A DNA stretch of 64,000 bases from Amycolatopsis nigrescens CSC17Ta-90. Its GTDB lineage: Bacteria > Actinomycetota > Actinomycetes > Mycobacteriales > Pseudonocardiaceae. This document shows, piece after piece, positions 51,231 through 57,602 of this stretch (positions are counted from its first letter, which is position 1; every line of letters begins with the position of its first letter). A model generated the notes under the pieces. It was not told where the DNA came from. It saw only the letters and a program-made list of their open reading frames with translations, and made no database searches. Where the stretch lies: the NCBI RefSeq assembly GCF_000384315.1, contig NZ_ARVW01000001.1, positions 8,353,001-8,417,000 of the forward strand. The letters run 5' to 3'. Both the position numbers and the translations under genes were made by a program.

Positions 51231-52979
51231 CTATTTGCGGGTCTCGTTCAGGTAGTTGTAGATCGTGTAGCGGGTCACGTCGAGCTCGGTCGCGAGGTGG
51301 TCCACCGCGTCCTTGATCAGGAAGAAACCGGCCTCGTCCAGCTCGCGCACCACGGCCGCCTTGTGCGGTTTCTTCATCAGCTCCACCGGGATACCGGCCT
51401 TGCCGACCGCCCGCTCGATGAGGAACCGCTGCAGGCTGTCCACGTCCGGCGGGAAGGTCTCGCGCTGCCCACCGGCGGGCAGCGGGGACGCCGTCACCCC
51501 GCGCTCGCTGTTCACGCACAGGCAGCCCACCGCCACCCCCTGCTCGTCCCGCAGGAACAGGGTGGACGAGCGGATCGGCCTGCCGTCCGGGCCGTGCGTC
51601 TCGTAGTCGGTCAGGTCCTGGGTGGTGCCCCGGCGGACCAGGCCGAGCAGCAGGTCCGTCATCGGGCCGCCCGGGGTGCGGCTGGTCAGATCGCCGGCCA
51701 CGGCGATGATCGAGTCCGGCAGCCGGGACAGGTCGTGCAGCACCACCTCGTTGCCGGGGCCGAGCATGGTGGCCAGCCCGGACACCGCCGGAACCAGCGC
51801 GGTGAGCACGCTGTGCGAGGTCTCCGCCACGGCCCCGGCCGGCACGGCCGTACCTCCGCCGTTCGACGACGGCCTGGTCAGCCCGGCCAGCACGGCACGC
51901 ACCTGCTCGGCCACTGAGGCCGAGGTGGACGCGTGCGGCGAGAGCCGGACGTGCTCCGGCCGCACGGTGGCCGCGATCCCCTCCGCGGCCAGCGCCGCGC
52001 CGATCTGCTCGGCCGGCACGTCCGCCGCGGTGAACGCCAGGATGCCCGCCCGCCTCTCGGTCGCGGACACGATCTCCGCGCCTGCCGACCGCAGCGCCTC
52101 TTCCAGCTCACCGACCCGCTCGGCGATCCGCGCCTCGATCGACGGCACACCGGCCTCCTCCACCAGTTCCAGCGCGGCGGCGAACGCGCCGGAGGTGATC
52201 GGGCTGAGGTTGCTGATCGACCAGCCGGCCGCGGTGTCCGCACCAGGATGGATCTCGTCGTCGAACAGCCCGGGATCGCGGGCCCCTGTCCAGCCGGAGA
52301 TGACCGGGTTCATCCGCTCCAGCGCGCGGTCCGACAGCACGGCGAAACCCGTCCCCCAGCCGGCACGCAGCCATTTCTGCCCGCCGACCACCAGTACGTC
52401 GGCCACCTCCCACGGCGCGTCGACCACGCCGAACCCCTGGATCCCGTCCACCACCAGCAGCCGGTCGCCGATCACCTCCCGGATGGCCGCCAGATCGGCC
52501 CGGTACCCGGTGCGGAAGTCCACCGCGCTCACCGAGACGAGCGAGGTCTGCGCGGTCAGTTCGGCCGCGACGGCTTCCGCGGTGACGTACCCGCGTGGCG
52601 GACGCATCCGGCGCGTCCGCAGCCGCCCGGCTTGTTCCGCCCTCGCCCACGGGTAGGTGTTGGCCGGGAACTCCGCGGCCGAAACCAGCGCCTCGCCGCC
52701 GGGAGCGTTGAAGGCGGCCTGGAACAGCCCGAGGCTGGTGTTGGGCAGCAGTACGGTGTGGTCGGTGTCGCTGCCGCACAACCGCGCCGCGGCCGCCTTC
52801 GCCCGCACCTCCTGCCGCATCAACTCGTCCACTGTGGACGGCCCGGCCTTGGTGGCGTGCTCCAGCAGCGCGGCCGTGGTGTCCAGCACCGCGTGCGACG
52901 GCGGGCCGAACCGTGCGAAGTCCAGGTATCCGGCGGGCTCGTCGAACTGGAGCAGGTAACGCGCCGGGATCCGCCCCAC
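51231..52979 (-). CDS. class V aminotransferase fused to a YheO-like PAS and HTH_22 DNA-binding region
   Basis: In the 582-residue protein, residues 1-365 form a class V PLP fold with [23 protein letters not shown] (Asp178) and the Schiff-base lysine Lys202 in [12 protein letters not shown] Gly/Ser/Pro linker covers about 366-385. Residues 387-495 match YheO-like PAS domains ([61 protein letters not shown]). Residues 510-582 form the C-terminal helix-turn-helix ([25 protein letters not shown]). It is probably a PLP-dependent regulator. It is the last gene of the amino acid ABC operon, with a 1-base overlap. Confidence 0.85.
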
Positions 52980-53755
52980 TACAGGACCCTGGCCAGGAAC
53001 TGGCGGGTGCGCTCGTGCCGCGGCGAGCCGAGCACCTGCTCCGGCGGACCGGTCTCCACCACCGCCCCCTCGGCCATGAACACCACCTGGTCCGCGGCCT
53101 CCCTGGCGAAACCCATCTCGTGCGTCACGACCACCATTGTCATCCCCTCCGTGGCCAGCTTGCCCATCACCTCCAGCACCTCACCCACCAGTTCCGGGTC
53201 CAGTGCCGAGGTGGGCTCGTCGAACAGCATCAGCTTCGGTTTCATCGCCAGCGACCTGGCGATCGCCACCCGCTGCTGCTGCCCGCCGGAGAGCTGGCCG
53301 GGATAGTCGTCCGCGCGGTGCGCCAGGCCGACCCGGTCCAGCAGTTCCAGCGCGCTCTTCCTGGCCTCGGCCGCGGGCACGCCGCGCACCCTGGTCGGCC
53401 CCTCCACCACGTTCTCCAGCACGCTGCGGTGGGCGAACAGGTTGAACCGCTGGAACACCATGCCGATGTCCCGGCGCTGCCTCGCCACTTCGCGCTCTCG
53501 CAGCTCGTACAGCTTGCCGTGCCGGAGCCGGAAGCCGATCGGCTCGCCGTCCACCCAGACCTGGCCGCTGTCGATGGTCTCCAGATGGTTGATACAGCGC
53601 AGAAAAGTGCTCTTCCCGGCGCCGGACGGCCCGAGCAGGCAAACTACCTGTCCTTTGTGGACTGACAGGTCGATGCCGCGCAGCACCTCGGTGCCGCCGA
53701 AGCGCTTGCGCACCCCGACCGCCCGCAGCAGCGGTTCCTCCGGGTCAGAGGCCAT
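52979..53755 (-). CDS. polar amino acid ABC transporter ATPase
   Basis: The 258-residue ATPase has Walker [10 protein letters not shown], the family insert [33 protein letters not shown], signature LSGGQQQR, Walker [15 protein letters not shown] and H-loop THEMGFA. These features place it in the GlnQ/HisP branch. The ATG overlaps the permease gene by 11 bases. It is followed directly by the aminotransferase-regulator fusion. Confidence 0.92.
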
Positions 53756-54671
53756 CCCGACTCCTCACCAAGGGTGCGGTCCGCAACGCCCTGGCGGCCC
53801 GCGACCAGGGGCCTGCCGCCAGGCCGGCCCGGTCCGCCGCACCGAACGCGCGTTCCAGGTAGTGCTGGCCGACCCCGGCCACGGTGACCACGACCATGTA
53901 CCAGATCGCGGCCGCCAGCAGGGTTTCCATCACCAGCAGGTTGTGCGACGAGATGTTGTTCGCCGCGTGGATCAGCTCGGTGACGCCGATGACCGAGGCC
54001 ATCGAGGTGCCCTTGAGCATGTTGATGAAGTCGTTGCCGGTCGGCGGGATGATCACCCGCATCGCCTGCGGCAGCACCACCCGGCGCAGCGTGGTCGCCG
54101 GGGTCATCCCGATCGACTTCGCCGCCTCGGCCTGGCCACCGTCCACACTGTTCAGCCCGGCCCGCACGATCTCCGCCATGTAGGCGCTTTCGTTCAGCGC
54201 CAGCCCGAGCAGGGCTGCGACGAAAGCACTGATCAGCACGTTGGTCGGCTCGTGCACCAGATAGCCGTCGGTGAACGGCAGCGGGATCGAGATGAACTCG
54301 AAGACCAGCGCGAGGTTGTACCAGATCAGGATCTGCAACAGCACCGGCAGCCCGCGGAACAGCCAGATGTAGCCCGCGGCGAACCACCTGGCCACCGGGT
54401 TCGCCGAGCGTCGCATCAGCGCGACCACGACCCCGATCACGATCGCCGACGCCTGCGCGACCACCGCCAGCAGCACGGTGTTCAGCAGGCCGACGGCCAT
54501 CACCCGGTACCAGAGGAACTCCGGCACCGACTCGTAGTCGATCTGCGCCTGTGCCAGCGCCACCCCGAGCAGTCCGAGCAGCACCAGGATGACCACGGCG
54601 CTGACCCACCGCCCCCAGTGCCGCAGCCGGACGATGGGCAGCTCCGCCCCGGCGGGTTCAGCTTCCGCCAT
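53745..54671 (-). CDS. polar amino acid ABC transporter permease
   Basis: The 308-residue membrane protein has a TM domain of the HisMQ type: [47 protein letters not shown] and the EAA loop [55 protein letters not shown] single permease suggests a homodimer. Its start overlaps the binding-protein stop by 14 bases. A polar C-terminal tail of about 35 residues is added. Confidence 0.9.
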
Positions 54672-55638
54672 TGACGTTCACCTGCGCGACCGCACCCTGC
54701 TGCACACCCCAGGCCTCGAGGATCTTGCCGTAGGTGCCGTCCGCGATCAGTGCCTGCAGCGCGGCCCGCACGGACTCGGTCAGCTCCTTGCCCGTCTTGT
54801 GCACGCCGATGCCGTAGGGCCCGCCGTTGATCGGCTGGCCGGGCACCACCTCGAAGAACTTGCCCTCACCGGCGGTGCGCGAGATGTAGACCGCGCTGGG
54901 CAGGTCGTTCAGGATGGCCGCGACCCGGCCGGTGCGCAGCTGGTTCTGGTTCTGGGTGTCGCTGTCGGTCGCGGTGACAGTGATCGGGGGCTGGCCGGAC
55001 TGGCCGCACTTCGCGGACTGCTCGGTGGCGAACTTCTGGTGACTGGTGCCCTGCACCACGGCCACCGCCTTGCCGCACAGGGTGTCCGGGCCGGTGATCC
55101 CGTCCGGGTTGCCCTTGCGCACCATGATCGTGATGCCGGACTGGAAGTAGTCCACGAAGTCGATCTGCTGCTGGCGTTCGGCGGTGTCGTTCATCGCGGC
55201 CATGGTCAGATCGACCCGGCCGGACTGCAGGCTGGTGATCAGCGAGCCGAAGGCCATGTCCTGGTGGGCGACCCGCACCCCGAGCTTCGCCGCGATGGCC
55301 TTCGCCAGGTCTACCTCGTAGCCGATCGGCGTCTTGCCGTCGGCGGCGTAGAAGTTGTTCGGCGCGGACTGCAGGTTGGAGGCCAGCTGCAGGGTGCCTG
55401 CCTGCGCGACCTTCGGCGGCAGCGCGGCGGCGAGCTGCGCGTCCTTCTGCACCCCGGCGAGCAGCGCGGTGGTGTCCGGGATGGCGCTCGCACCGCCGGT
55501 CGGTTCGCTCGTGCCGCCGGCACCGTCCTCGCCACCGCCGCAAGCCGCGGTGGCGAGCGCCAGTACACCGCCGAGCACGGCGGCCTGCCAGGTGCGGGCC
55601 CGGGATCGGCCACGGAAGAAGGGCGGGGCATCGGGCAT
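54658..55638 (-). CDS. amino acid-binding lipoprotein (SBP_bac_3)
   Basis: The 326-residue protein has a signal peptide with lipobox ATAAC (Cys33). The ligand-binding domain includes TPIGYEVDLAKAIAAKLGVRV, FGSLITSLQSGRVDLTMAAMNDTAERQQQIDFVDYF, VVQGTSHQKF and DLPSAVYISRTAGEGKF. It captures a polar or cationic amino acid or derivative. ATG 55638 has GGAGG 6 bases upstream. It is the first gene of the four-gene operon, with a good promoter at 55691-55719. Confidence 0.9.
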   Translation of the reverse strand: MPDAPPFFRGRSRARTWQAAVLGGVLALATAACGGGEDGAGGTSEPTGGASAIPDTTALLAGVQKDAQLAAALPPKVAQAGTLQLASNLQSAPNNFYAADGKTPIGYEVDLAKAIAAKLGVRVAHQDMAFGSLITSLQSGRVDLTMAAMNDTAERQQQIDFVDYFQSGITIMVRKGNPDGITGPDTLCGKAVAVVQGTSHQKFATEQSAKCGQSGQPPITVTATDSDTQNQNQLRTGRVAAILNDLPSAVYISRTAGEGKFFEVVPGQPINGGPYGIGVHKTGKELTESVRAALQALIADGTYGKILEAWGVQQGAVAQVNVNGGS

Positions 55639-55690
55639 CGGGGACCTCCACGACCAGGGACGCAGTGCGGGGCTGGGTTGATGAGCGCAG

Positions 55691-55731
55691 ACGCTACAAC
55701 TGCTTGTTGAAGTCGTCAACGTGCTGTTGAA
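55691..55731 (-). promoter_or_regulatory. promoter of the amino acid ABC operon with a 20-bp-spaced repeat
   Basis: On the reverse strand TTGACG (55714-55719) and TAGCGT (55691-55696) are 17 bases apart. Two similar 15-mers, CAACTGCTTGTTGAA (55697-55711) and CAACGTGCTGTTGAA (55717-55731), lie over and upstream of it. The 20-base period puts both on nearly the same DNA face, as expected for an activator or repressor dimer pair. Confidence 0.6.
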
Positions 55732-56048: not shown

Positions 56049-56669
56049 ATGCCCGAGCAGACTGACCGGGTGAACAAAGCACTTCTCGTCATCGACGTCC
56101 AAGAATCCTTCCGGCAGCGGCCGAGCTGGCAGCTGGTGTCCAACCCCGGGATCGCCGAGCAGGTCGGCAAGCTGGTGACCGCCGCACGAGCGGGCGGCGA
56201 CCTGGTGATCTGGGTACTGCACACGGTGCCGGGCAGCGGCACCGTGTTCGATCCCGACTCCGGCCACGTCCGGCTGATCGACGGGCTCAGCGCCGCCGAT
56301 GGCGAGCCGGTACTCAGCAAGACCGCGCACAATGCCTTCACCACAACGAACCTTCAGCAGATCCTGACCAGCCACGGGATCGGCGAGGTAACCATCTGCG
56401 GCATCCGCACCGAGCAGTGCTGCGAGACCACCGCCCGGATCGCGTCCGATCTCGGCTACGCGGTCACCTTCGTCACCGACGCGACCGCGACCGAGCCGAT
56501 CCCGCACCGGGACGCGCCGGAGGACCGGACCCCGGCCGAGGTGCTGGCGGACCCGCGGACGCTCGGCGTGGCGGAGATCATCAGCCGGACCGAGTACGCG
56601 CTGGCCGGCCGGTTCGCCACCATCCGCACCGTCGCGGAGCTGACCGGGGCCGCGGCGGTCGCCGGGTAA
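56049..56669 (+). CDS. isochorismatase-fold cysteine hydrolase
   Basis: The 206-residue protein has the triad Asp16 (LLVIDVQESF), Lys91 (LSKTAHNAF) and Cys124 (GIRTEQCCETTARIASDLGYAVTFVTDATAT). It should hydrolyse an amide or isochorismate-like substrate (nicotinamidase/carbamoylase family). ATG 56049 lacks a ribosome site; GTG 56070 is the alternative and gives the usual N-terminus. The GlxA-type regulator follows 12 bases later, so the two are one transcript. Confidence 0.8.
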   Translation: MPEQTDRVNKALLVIDVQESFRQRPSWQLVSNPGIAEQVGKLVTAARAGGDLVIWVLHTVPGSGTVFDPDSGHVRLIDGLSAADGEPVLSKTAHNAFTTTNLQQILTSHGIGEVTICGIRTEQCCETTARIASDLGYAVTFVTDATATEPIPHRDAPEDRTPAEVLADPRTLGVAEIISRTEYALAGRFATIRTVAELTGAAAVAG

Positions 56670-56681
56670 GCTGACCAGATC

Positions 56682-57602
56682 GTGAGCCGCATCGTCTTCC
56701 TGCTGATCCCGGGGCTGCATCTGCTTGACCTCGCCGGGCCCGCCCAGGTGTTCTCCACCGCCGGGGACCTCGGCTACGGCTACACGCTGACGCATGTCGC
56801 GGAACAGGAAGAGGTGCCGACCGCACAGGGGCTCGGGGTCCGCGCGGAGACCGTGTGGCCGGAGCTGGACCCCGCGGACCTGATCGTGGTGCCCGGCTGG
56901 CGCGCCCCCGTGCTGGGCGGCACCGGCCCGCTCACCGAGGCCACCGCCGCCCGGCTCCGCGCGCACCACCTGGCCGGCGGCATGGTGGCCAGTGTGTGCG
57001 CGGGCGCCGACGCACTGGGCCGGGCCGGACTGCTCGACGGCCGCCGGTGCACCACGCATCACGAGCTCCAGGACGAACTTGCCCACCGCTATCCGAAGGC
57101 GACGGTGGTGCGGGACGTGCTGTACGTGGTCGACGACCGGGTGGTGACCTCGGCCGGGATCGCCAGCGGGATCGATCTCGCGCTGCATCTGGTCGCCACC
57201 CGGCACGGGCCGGGCATCGCGGCCAGGATCGCCAGGTCGATGGTCGTCTACGCCCGGCGGAACGGGGACGAGCGGCAGTCCAGCGCGATGCTGCGGCACC
57301 GCTCGCACCTGTCCGACGCGGTGCACCGGATCCAGGACGTGATCGACGCCCGGTTCGCCGAACGGCTGCCGCTGACCGAGCTGTCCCGCGCCGCGGAGTG
57401 CAGCGAACGGACCCTGACCCGGTTGTTCGCCCAGGCCACCGGCCTGACCCCGCTGCGGTACCAGCAGTTGCTCCGGCTGGAACGCGCCGAGCACCTGATC
57501 GGCCAGGGCACCGCCGTGGAGACGGCGGCCCGTGCGGTCGGGTTCGAAGACGCCAGGATGCTCCGGCGGCTGCGGGCCCGTCCCGGTGCGGCGGTCGCCT
57601 GA
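56682..57602 (+). CDS. GlxA-type AraC regulator with DJ-1/PfpI-like domain
   Basis: The 306-residue protein has a class I glutamine amidotransferase-like sensor (1-180) with nucleophile-elbow Cys106 in ASVCAGADALG and a C-terminal AraC DNA-binding region (LTELSRAAECSERTLTRLFAQATGLTPLRYQQLLRLERAEHLI, AARAVGFEDARMLRRLR). Such GlxA-like regulators often sit next to isochorismatase-fold genes. It probably regulates that gene. Confidence 0.85.
   Translation: MSRIVFLLIPGLHLLDLAGPAQVFSTAGDLGYGYTLTHVAEQEEVPTAQGLGVRAETVWPELDPADLIVVPGWRAPVLGGTGPLTEATAARLRAHHLAGGMVASVCAGADALGRAGLLDGRRCTTHHELQDELAHRYPKATVVRDVLYVVDDRVVTSAGIASGIDLALHLVATRHGPGIAARIARSMVVYARRNGDERQSSAMLRHRSHLSDAVHRIQDVIDARFAERLPLTELSRAAECSERTLTRLFAQATGLTPLRYQQLLRLERAEHLIGQGTAVETAARAVGFEDARMLRRLRARPGAAVA

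Follow-up and report, generated by a model that had tools for sequence, protein, structure and literature searches.

Does a gene that joins a pyridoxal 5'-phosphate (PLP) enzyme to a DNA-binding domain encode an amino acid sensor, an enzyme with a built-in transcription switch, or two proteins merged by error? The question is raised by a locus of Amycolatopsis nigrescens CSC17Ta-90, within a stretch of 64,000 nucleotides of contig NZ_ARVW01000001.1 (positions 8,353,001 to 8,417,000; here called the window). Positions 51231-52979 of the window hold, on the reverse strand, a single open frame of 582 amino acids with a GTG start codon, in which a class V PLP enzyme domain is followed by a YheO-like PAS_6 domain and a C-terminal HTH_22 helix-turn-helix (HTH) domain. 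A preliminary description of the window had proposed a PLP-dependent amino acid sensor that controls its own uptake system, built as an analogue of the MocR regulators. The comparative analysis reported here makes it probable that the gene is an autoregulated enzyme-regulator fusion at the end of an import operon, comprising a working class V enzyme, a PAS_6 sensor and an HTH_22 domain that acts on the operon promoter.

Results

The fused protein

All three domains scored above their Pfam cutoffs: Aminotran_5 at residues 56 to 338 (80.4 bits against a cutoff of 21.5), PAS_6 at residues 392 to 491 (90.2 against 27) and HTH_22 at residues 520 to 578 (72.0 against 29.6). The AlphaFold model of the 582-amino-acid protein had a mean predicted local distance difference test score (pLDDT) of 93.8 and a predicted template modeling score of 0.77, with residues 374 to 379 of the linker as the sole run with a pLDDT below 50. 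Mean pairwise identity was 0.33 in the linker (residues 367 to 384), compared with 0.77 in the class V domain, 0.81 in the PAS domain and 0.77 to 0.81 in the domains overall.

The preliminary description had allowed for a frameshift near codons 366 to 385 that joined two genes. A search for homologues returned 1457 matches, and in all 120 of those listed, the window's own protein included, the class V, PAS_6 and HTH_22 domains were found in one protein. The genera represented include Amycolatopsis, Pseudonocardia, Nocardia, Herbihabitans and Mycolicibacterium, and the named loci extend this list by Saccharothrix, Lentzea, Kibdelosporangium, Umezawaea and Actinosynnema. The design is conserved across many actinobacteria. 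Since every listed homologue has the three domains in one protein, and the architecture recurs in several genera and in the loci of named genomes, the fusion is not an artefact; a sequencing or assembly error that merged two genes is so improbable that it was rejected. The stretch in question is a genuine but fast-evolving linker.

The class V-PAS_6-HTH_22 architecture is common in sequence databases, where jgi labels its carriers "selenocysteine lyase/cysteine desulfurase/predicted transcriptional regulator YheO." Because these automatic names already combine both functions, the architecture counts as catalogued, although it has apparently not been studied. The architecture is thus less novel than the preliminary description had it, although a search of open-licence PMC papers found no paper on the fusion. 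The architecture may be among the five by which PAS_6 is represented according to an excerpt of PMC4519771.

The transporter operon

The operon runs from a solute-binding lipoprotein gene through permease and ATPase genes to the fused gene, and the ATPase gene ends on the same base (52979) on which the fused gene starts, so that the 1-base overlap noted before was confirmed. When 98 loci (L051 to L148) were compared, the class V and C-terminal parts were scored as fused in 71, a score that also takes in two loci without a PAS domain (L128 and L145). The solute-binding protein, permease and ATPase genes lay upstream in 68 of these 71 loci and in 2 of the 27 not scored as fused (L138 and L140). 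Because the search for loci used peptides of the enzyme half and of the regulator half, with 80 of the loci being the best 80 of 94, 68 of 98 is not usable as a frequency. The class V proteins of L127 and L146 are identical and probably come from the same place, and L130 is interrupted by a contig end.

The two unfused loci with a transporter are of Modestobacter type: the class V part of L138 matches a Modestobacter protein without a difference, and that of L140 is 93% identical to another. Their solute-binding protein, permease and ATPase are 56 to 72% identical to those of the window, with the gene order unchanged. The operon ends in a gene for a free class V enzyme, and immediately before the solute-binding protein gene stands one for a LacI-type protein, which is likely the regulator of this operon. 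Thus, the class V enzyme can accompany the transporter under a different regulator.

The predicted operator

Over the operon promoter, upstream of the solute-binding protein gene, lies a double dyad with the consensus TTCAAC-N5-GTKGAC-N3-TTCAAC-N5-GTTGTA. It was present in 68 of 68 fused operons at up to 3 mismatches and in 67 at up to 2, and after shuffling there were no matches in 30 of these loci. In the 64 loci with the same spacing together with the window, dyad positions carried 1.4 to 2 bits each, except for the T/G position (0.84), and most spacer positions carried less than 0.8. The dyads are two bases further apart in four Mycolicibacterium loci (L084 to L087), which misfit the fixed spacing, and L090 matched out of register. 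The second dyad fills the spacer between the likely -35 and -10 elements. An ATG just after a -10 element is the pattern of leaderless transcripts, and the finding of an ATG 7 to 8 bases after TANNNT in seven loci (L101 to L104 and L106 to L108) therefore supports the -10 call. The 35-base operator is a predicted site that was previously unreported. The preliminary description had named positions 55691-55731 as a candidate binding site, and this segment, with its dyads and likely -10, forms a strong phylogenetic footprint at which binding is predicted.

The operator accompanies the protein from genome to genome. It occurs once in the 9.1-Mb genome of A. nigrescens (both strands, up to 3 mismatches). 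Among 40 genomes of the genus, 37 had the operator, and the same 37 matched the protein; the remaining three had neither. At up to 2 mismatches, the operator was found in 30 of 397 genomes of the order, of which 29 encode the full fusion and one (G405) a class V-HTH protein without the PAS domain. The reversed pattern had no match in the 40 or in the 397 genomes. No operator was found at up to 2 mismatches in 14 other genomes of the order that match the class V part (9 confirmed to lack the C-terminal part, the other five being G326, G533, G708, G713 and G573) or in four that match the YheO part only.

The class V domain

Lys202, named earlier as the Schiff-base residue, aligned with the SufS lysine at the Schiff-base position, and K202, D178 and Q181 were invariant in 246 of 246 alignment rows. 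In this alignment the PLP residues were identical between fused and free class V forms, and the window protein retains them and scores above the PF00266 cutoff. The 50 nearest solved folds (best 50 matches listed) were all class V enzymes, and the class V part has the fold of a C-DES-type C-S lyase. No invariant cysteine was found in the class V part that could stand for the catalytic cysteine of the desulfurases SufS, CsdA and IscS; the sole class V column with cysteine in more than 20% of rows was C68 (133 of 193 fused proteins, 0 of 8 Modestobacter-like proteins). The NCBIfam sufS model scored 48.6 bits, below its cutoff of 475.1.

In many genomes the class V domain stands alone, without a fused regulator, and it is retained in loci that have lost both PAS-HTH and transporter. 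As it keeps its PLP residues, stands alone, outlives these losses and ends the Modestobacter-type operon, the class V domain has the look of a functioning enzyme and not of a sensor alone. A second natural fusion of this family was observed in genome G307 (L143:5337-7631), where the class V domain is joined to a zinc alcohol dehydrogenase in a protein of 764 amino acids.

Loss of parts in related loci

Class V-HTH_22 proteins without the PAS domain (L128, L145, P0176, P0186, P0211 and P0219) fell in two clades of the tree. In L128 and L145, three ABC (ATP-binding cassette) transporter genes and the PAS domain have been removed in place, and the class V domain continues into an intact HTH_22 domain. 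Twenty-five Saccharothrix-type genomes were compared; such genus labels were inferred from matching named loci, and this genus seems to include Actinosynnema. Sixteen encode the full protein, 4 the PAS-less form (G405, G479, G839 and G844), 3 the class V domain only (G490, G837 and G842), 1 a class V fragment (G847) and 1 nothing (G851). The operator, at up to 3 mismatches, was found in 20 of 20 genomes with the HTH and in 1 of 5 without it (G490), and in the four PAS-less genomes it stood 18 to 102 bases before the class V match. This distribution indicates that the operator follows the HTH and that the PAS domain tends to follow the transporter.

Further cases of loss were also seen. G807, one of the 37 genomes of the genus, has an intact class V domain and the operator, with the transporter genes and PAS-HTH gone; it keeps an apparent signal-peptide remnant of the solute-binding protein, and looks like a recent loss. 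In L114, from Mycobacterium yunnanensis, the C-terminal regulator is broken by stop codons and the PAS domain is partly gone, with the class V domain intact and a copy of the operator upstream.

The PAS_6 and HTH_22 domains

The C-terminal half has the order of YheO/DauR-type regulators, PAS_6 then HTH_22, PAS fold included. C488 was present in 193 of 193 fused proteins and in 59 of 59 aligned stand-alone YheO proteins, and C486 in 192 of 193 and 31 of 59, respectively. A PLP-enzyme gene adjoins the YheO gene in 6 of 8 stand-alone loci examined: a fold type II (PALP) gene in L149, L152 and L156, a class V gene in L150 and L151 and a class I/II gene in L153; the neighbors tested in L154 and L155 were not PLP enzymes. 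Two of these loci hold the YheO paralogues of A. nigrescens itself, at 5.08 Mb (L152, PALP) and 4.50 Mb (L153, Aminotran_1_2). In 4 of these 8 loci (L149, L150, L154 and L156), a motif resembling the double dyad (up to 3 mismatches) closely precedes the YheO gene or its operon. Since stand-alone YheO genes often adjoin PLP-enzyme genes, the simplest origin of the fusion is the joining of the regulator to the kind of enzyme that it often adjoins. P0169, a free class V protein, and P0243, the closest complete-looking free YheO protein, are each encoded on one 12,224-base contig from the same source and are perhaps a split enzyme-regulator pair.

Features and neighbors of the locus

Table 1. Positions of the fused gene, its operon and its predicted control region in the window.
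Feature	Position	Strand	Basis
Fused gene, class V PLP enzyme-PAS_6-HTH_22, 582 amino acids	51231..52979	-	Open reading frame, Pfam, homologues, AlphaFold model
Class V (Aminotran_5) domain, residues 1-366	51882..52979	-	
Lys202 codon, expected PLP Schiff base	52374..52376	-	K in 246/246 rows
Variable linker, residues 367-384	51828..51881	-	pLDDT, pairwise identity
YheO-like PAS_6 domain, residues 385-492	51504..51827	-	Pfam, fold comparison, conservation
C486 and C488 codons (PAS_6 domain)	within 51516-51524	-	
HTH_22 region, residues 516-582, and stop	51231..51434	-	
ABC transporter ATPase	52979..53755	-	
ABC transporter permease	53745..54671	-	
Family 3 solute-binding lipoprotein	54658..55638	-	Start ATG 55636-55638 inferred, GGAGG upstream; listed reading frame starts at 55719
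Predicted operator, two CAAC-N5-GTTG dyads, centers 20 bases apart	55697..55731	-	
Likely -35, TTGACG, within operator	55714..55719	-	Inference
Likely -10, TAGCGT (TANNNT conserved)	55691..55696	-	Inference

The solute-binding protein (54658-55719) also matched the C-terminal part of the NCBIfam kinase model StpK7 (MSMEG_1200), at 158.8 bits, below the cutoff. Divergent from the operon, on the other strand, lie an isochorismatase-family gene and a gene for a DJ-1/PfpI-AraC regulator (56049-57602), neither of which was found next to it in the further fused loci compared. In Saccharothrix, Umezawaea, Lentzea and Actinosynnema loci (L092 to L100, L105 to L108, L110, L126, L128 and L145), the operon adjoins a thioredoxin gene of the opposite strand, which persists where the operon has been lost. 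In 32 of 68 fused loci, a small protein cluster recurs no more than three genes away from the operon, on one side or the other and in varying positions (for example, L051:5441-5842), and it also occurs at L126, L145 and L207:6966-7358; the members checked with Pfam were PNPOx_N proteins.

Discussion

In the autoregulated fusion that we favor, transporter, enzyme and switch would all be made from one transcript under its own control. The operon would import a polar amino acid or a sulfur-containing derivative, and the class V domain, with its fold of a cystine C-S lyase or cysteine desulfurase, would act on the imported compound. The PAS_6 domain, more likely the sensor than the class V domain, would detect this compound or its product. 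The HTH_22 domain would bind the two dyads over the -35 to -10 region, most likely repressing the operon until the ligand arrives; the HTH domains would then leave both dyads, and the transporter and enzyme would be made. Computation shows the architecture, the operon, the operator with its tie to the HTH, and the intact PLP site; enzyme activity, ligand, sensing domain and the preference for repression over activation are what we infer from the comparison.

Several observations weigh against this account. The solute-binding protein has AncQR and GlnH as relatives, which suggest glutamine or arginine as the substrate more than cystine, and a strict sigma-70 scan returned no site. Few independent events underlie the link between transporter loss and PAS loss (typically 5 pairs in agreement, none opposed and 1 tied; median p, 0.0625), and L111 has the fusion and operator without transporter genes. 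Four loci that have no intact HTH (L114, L148, L207, which is G807, and G490) still keep the operator, which we read as a recent remnant in each. The free enzyme does not always accompany the transporter, as in a third Modestobacter-type genome (G675, L139) the class V gene occurs but the solute-binding protein and permease genes do not. Finally, the neighbor repressed by the YheO-like protein Cj1387c is an L-PSP gene and not a PLP-enzyme gene, according to an excerpt of PMC4519771.

An alternative is that neighboring operon genes were fused and that enzyme and YheO regulator work independently, with co-expression as the only gain. The PLP-enzyme genes beside most stand-alone YheO genes, both own-genome paralogues included, the possible split pair and the variable linker would all fit such tethering. 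The retention of the fusion as one protein across several genera speaks against it, as does the fate of PAS and HTH after transporter loss, since in the loci seen they were lost, broken or trimmed and never split off as an intact gene; tethering alone is possible but on the unlikely side. Activation of the operon by HTH_22 would be in keeping with the weak -35 (GTGGAC) of Saccharothrix-type loci and the poor -10 consensus, as found at activated promoters. However, a site that fills the -35/-10 spacer, as the second dyad does, usually blocks polymerase. A YheO-like PAS_6-HTH protein with data, Cj1387c, represses its neighbor (PMC4519771, in excerpt), and we regard activation as quite doubtful.

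The sensing role that the preliminary description gave to the PLP fold requires a separate judgment. In its strong form, the protein would be a convergent MocR, in which an amino acid forming an external aldimine at Lys202 rearranges the HTH domains and alters DNA binding, with catalysis weak or absent. The PAS-less proteins of two clades, whose sole recognized non-DNA domain is class V, and the operator kept before class V in 4 of the 25 Saccharothrix-type genomes are consistent with this. Against it, class V is retained in many loci where no regulator is fused to it, and in the Modestobacter-type operon it is a free enzyme; the PLP residues are the same in fused and free forms, and the PAS domain of normal members is as conserved as class V (0.81 and 0.77 mean pairwise identity). 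We therefore consider the strong form unlikely. What stands of the original proposal is that PLP fold and HTH belong to a single protein, encoded in its own uptake operon, with an operator that co-occurs with the protein genome by genome; class V as a MocR-like amino acid sensor is unsupported, and the comparative evidence points to an enzyme first of all. A bolder, tentative reading, which we hold to be rather improbable, is that a PLP-dependent transcription factor arose a second time, independently: the class V enzyme would be active, and its occupancy or its turnover would control the HTH_22 domain at the promoter of its own operon. Control would have run through the PAS domain at first and, in the Saccharothrix group, would have become direct once PAS and the three transporter genes had been removed in place. 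On this reading, a single catalytic site would be common to enzyme, sensor and repressor. Because PAS-less class V-HTH proteins keep the operator, the idea of the PLP site as sensor stays alive for that sub-branch.

The locus offers a clean, testable case of an enzyme, not of the MocR family, whose transcription switch is part of the same protein and whose 35-base operator has one site in its own genome. The roles of the parts are separated by a natural series of deletions: the full form, the PAS-less form, class V alone, and the free enzyme next to a LacI regulator. The locus also provides a predicted binding site for YheO/PAS_6 regulators, a family of little-known signals.

MocR regulators combine a GntR-family DNA-binding domain with a class I aminotransferase-like domain (PMC5320631, in excerpt). 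The fusion shares with this subfamily of GntR (GabR, PdxR and EnuR) the union of HTH and PLP fold in one polypeptide, the PLP lysine being retained (K202 in 246 of 246 rows), and the probable control of adjacent genes. It differs in its order, class V first, then PAS_6 and a C-terminal HTH_22, and in a PLP part that also exists as a free enzyme. Pfam searches of the window protein at E values up to 0.1 found Aminotran_5, PAS_6 and HTH_22 only, with neither an N-terminal GntR winged HTH nor the class I aminotransferase model PF00155. Thus, the analogy with MocR may hold for the working mode, but membership is wrong. DauR is a PAS_6-HTH_22 regulator of the YheO type, the type to which Cj1387c also belongs. 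With it the fusion shares both domains, at 37 to 53% identity to complete-looking stand-alone proteins; these are about 210 to 310 amino acids long and have no enzyme, whereas the window protein and all 120 listed homologues have an N-terminal class V domain, and the segment separating PAS from HTH is shorter in the fusion than in two stand-alone YheO proteins aligned. A Streptomyces PAS regulator is the subject of PMC10717218. Identity to the C-DES cystine C-S lyase and to SufS-type desulfurases is about 19%, and the fusion, unlike SufS and CsdA, has no invariant class V cysteine. We know of no regulator fusion in the C-DES or SufS-type cysteine desulfurase families. Similar in logic are trigger enzymes such as PutA, a repressor of its own transporter: their domains are unrelated to those of the fusion, but they too unite an enzyme and a DNA-binding repressor in one protein that controls its transporter.
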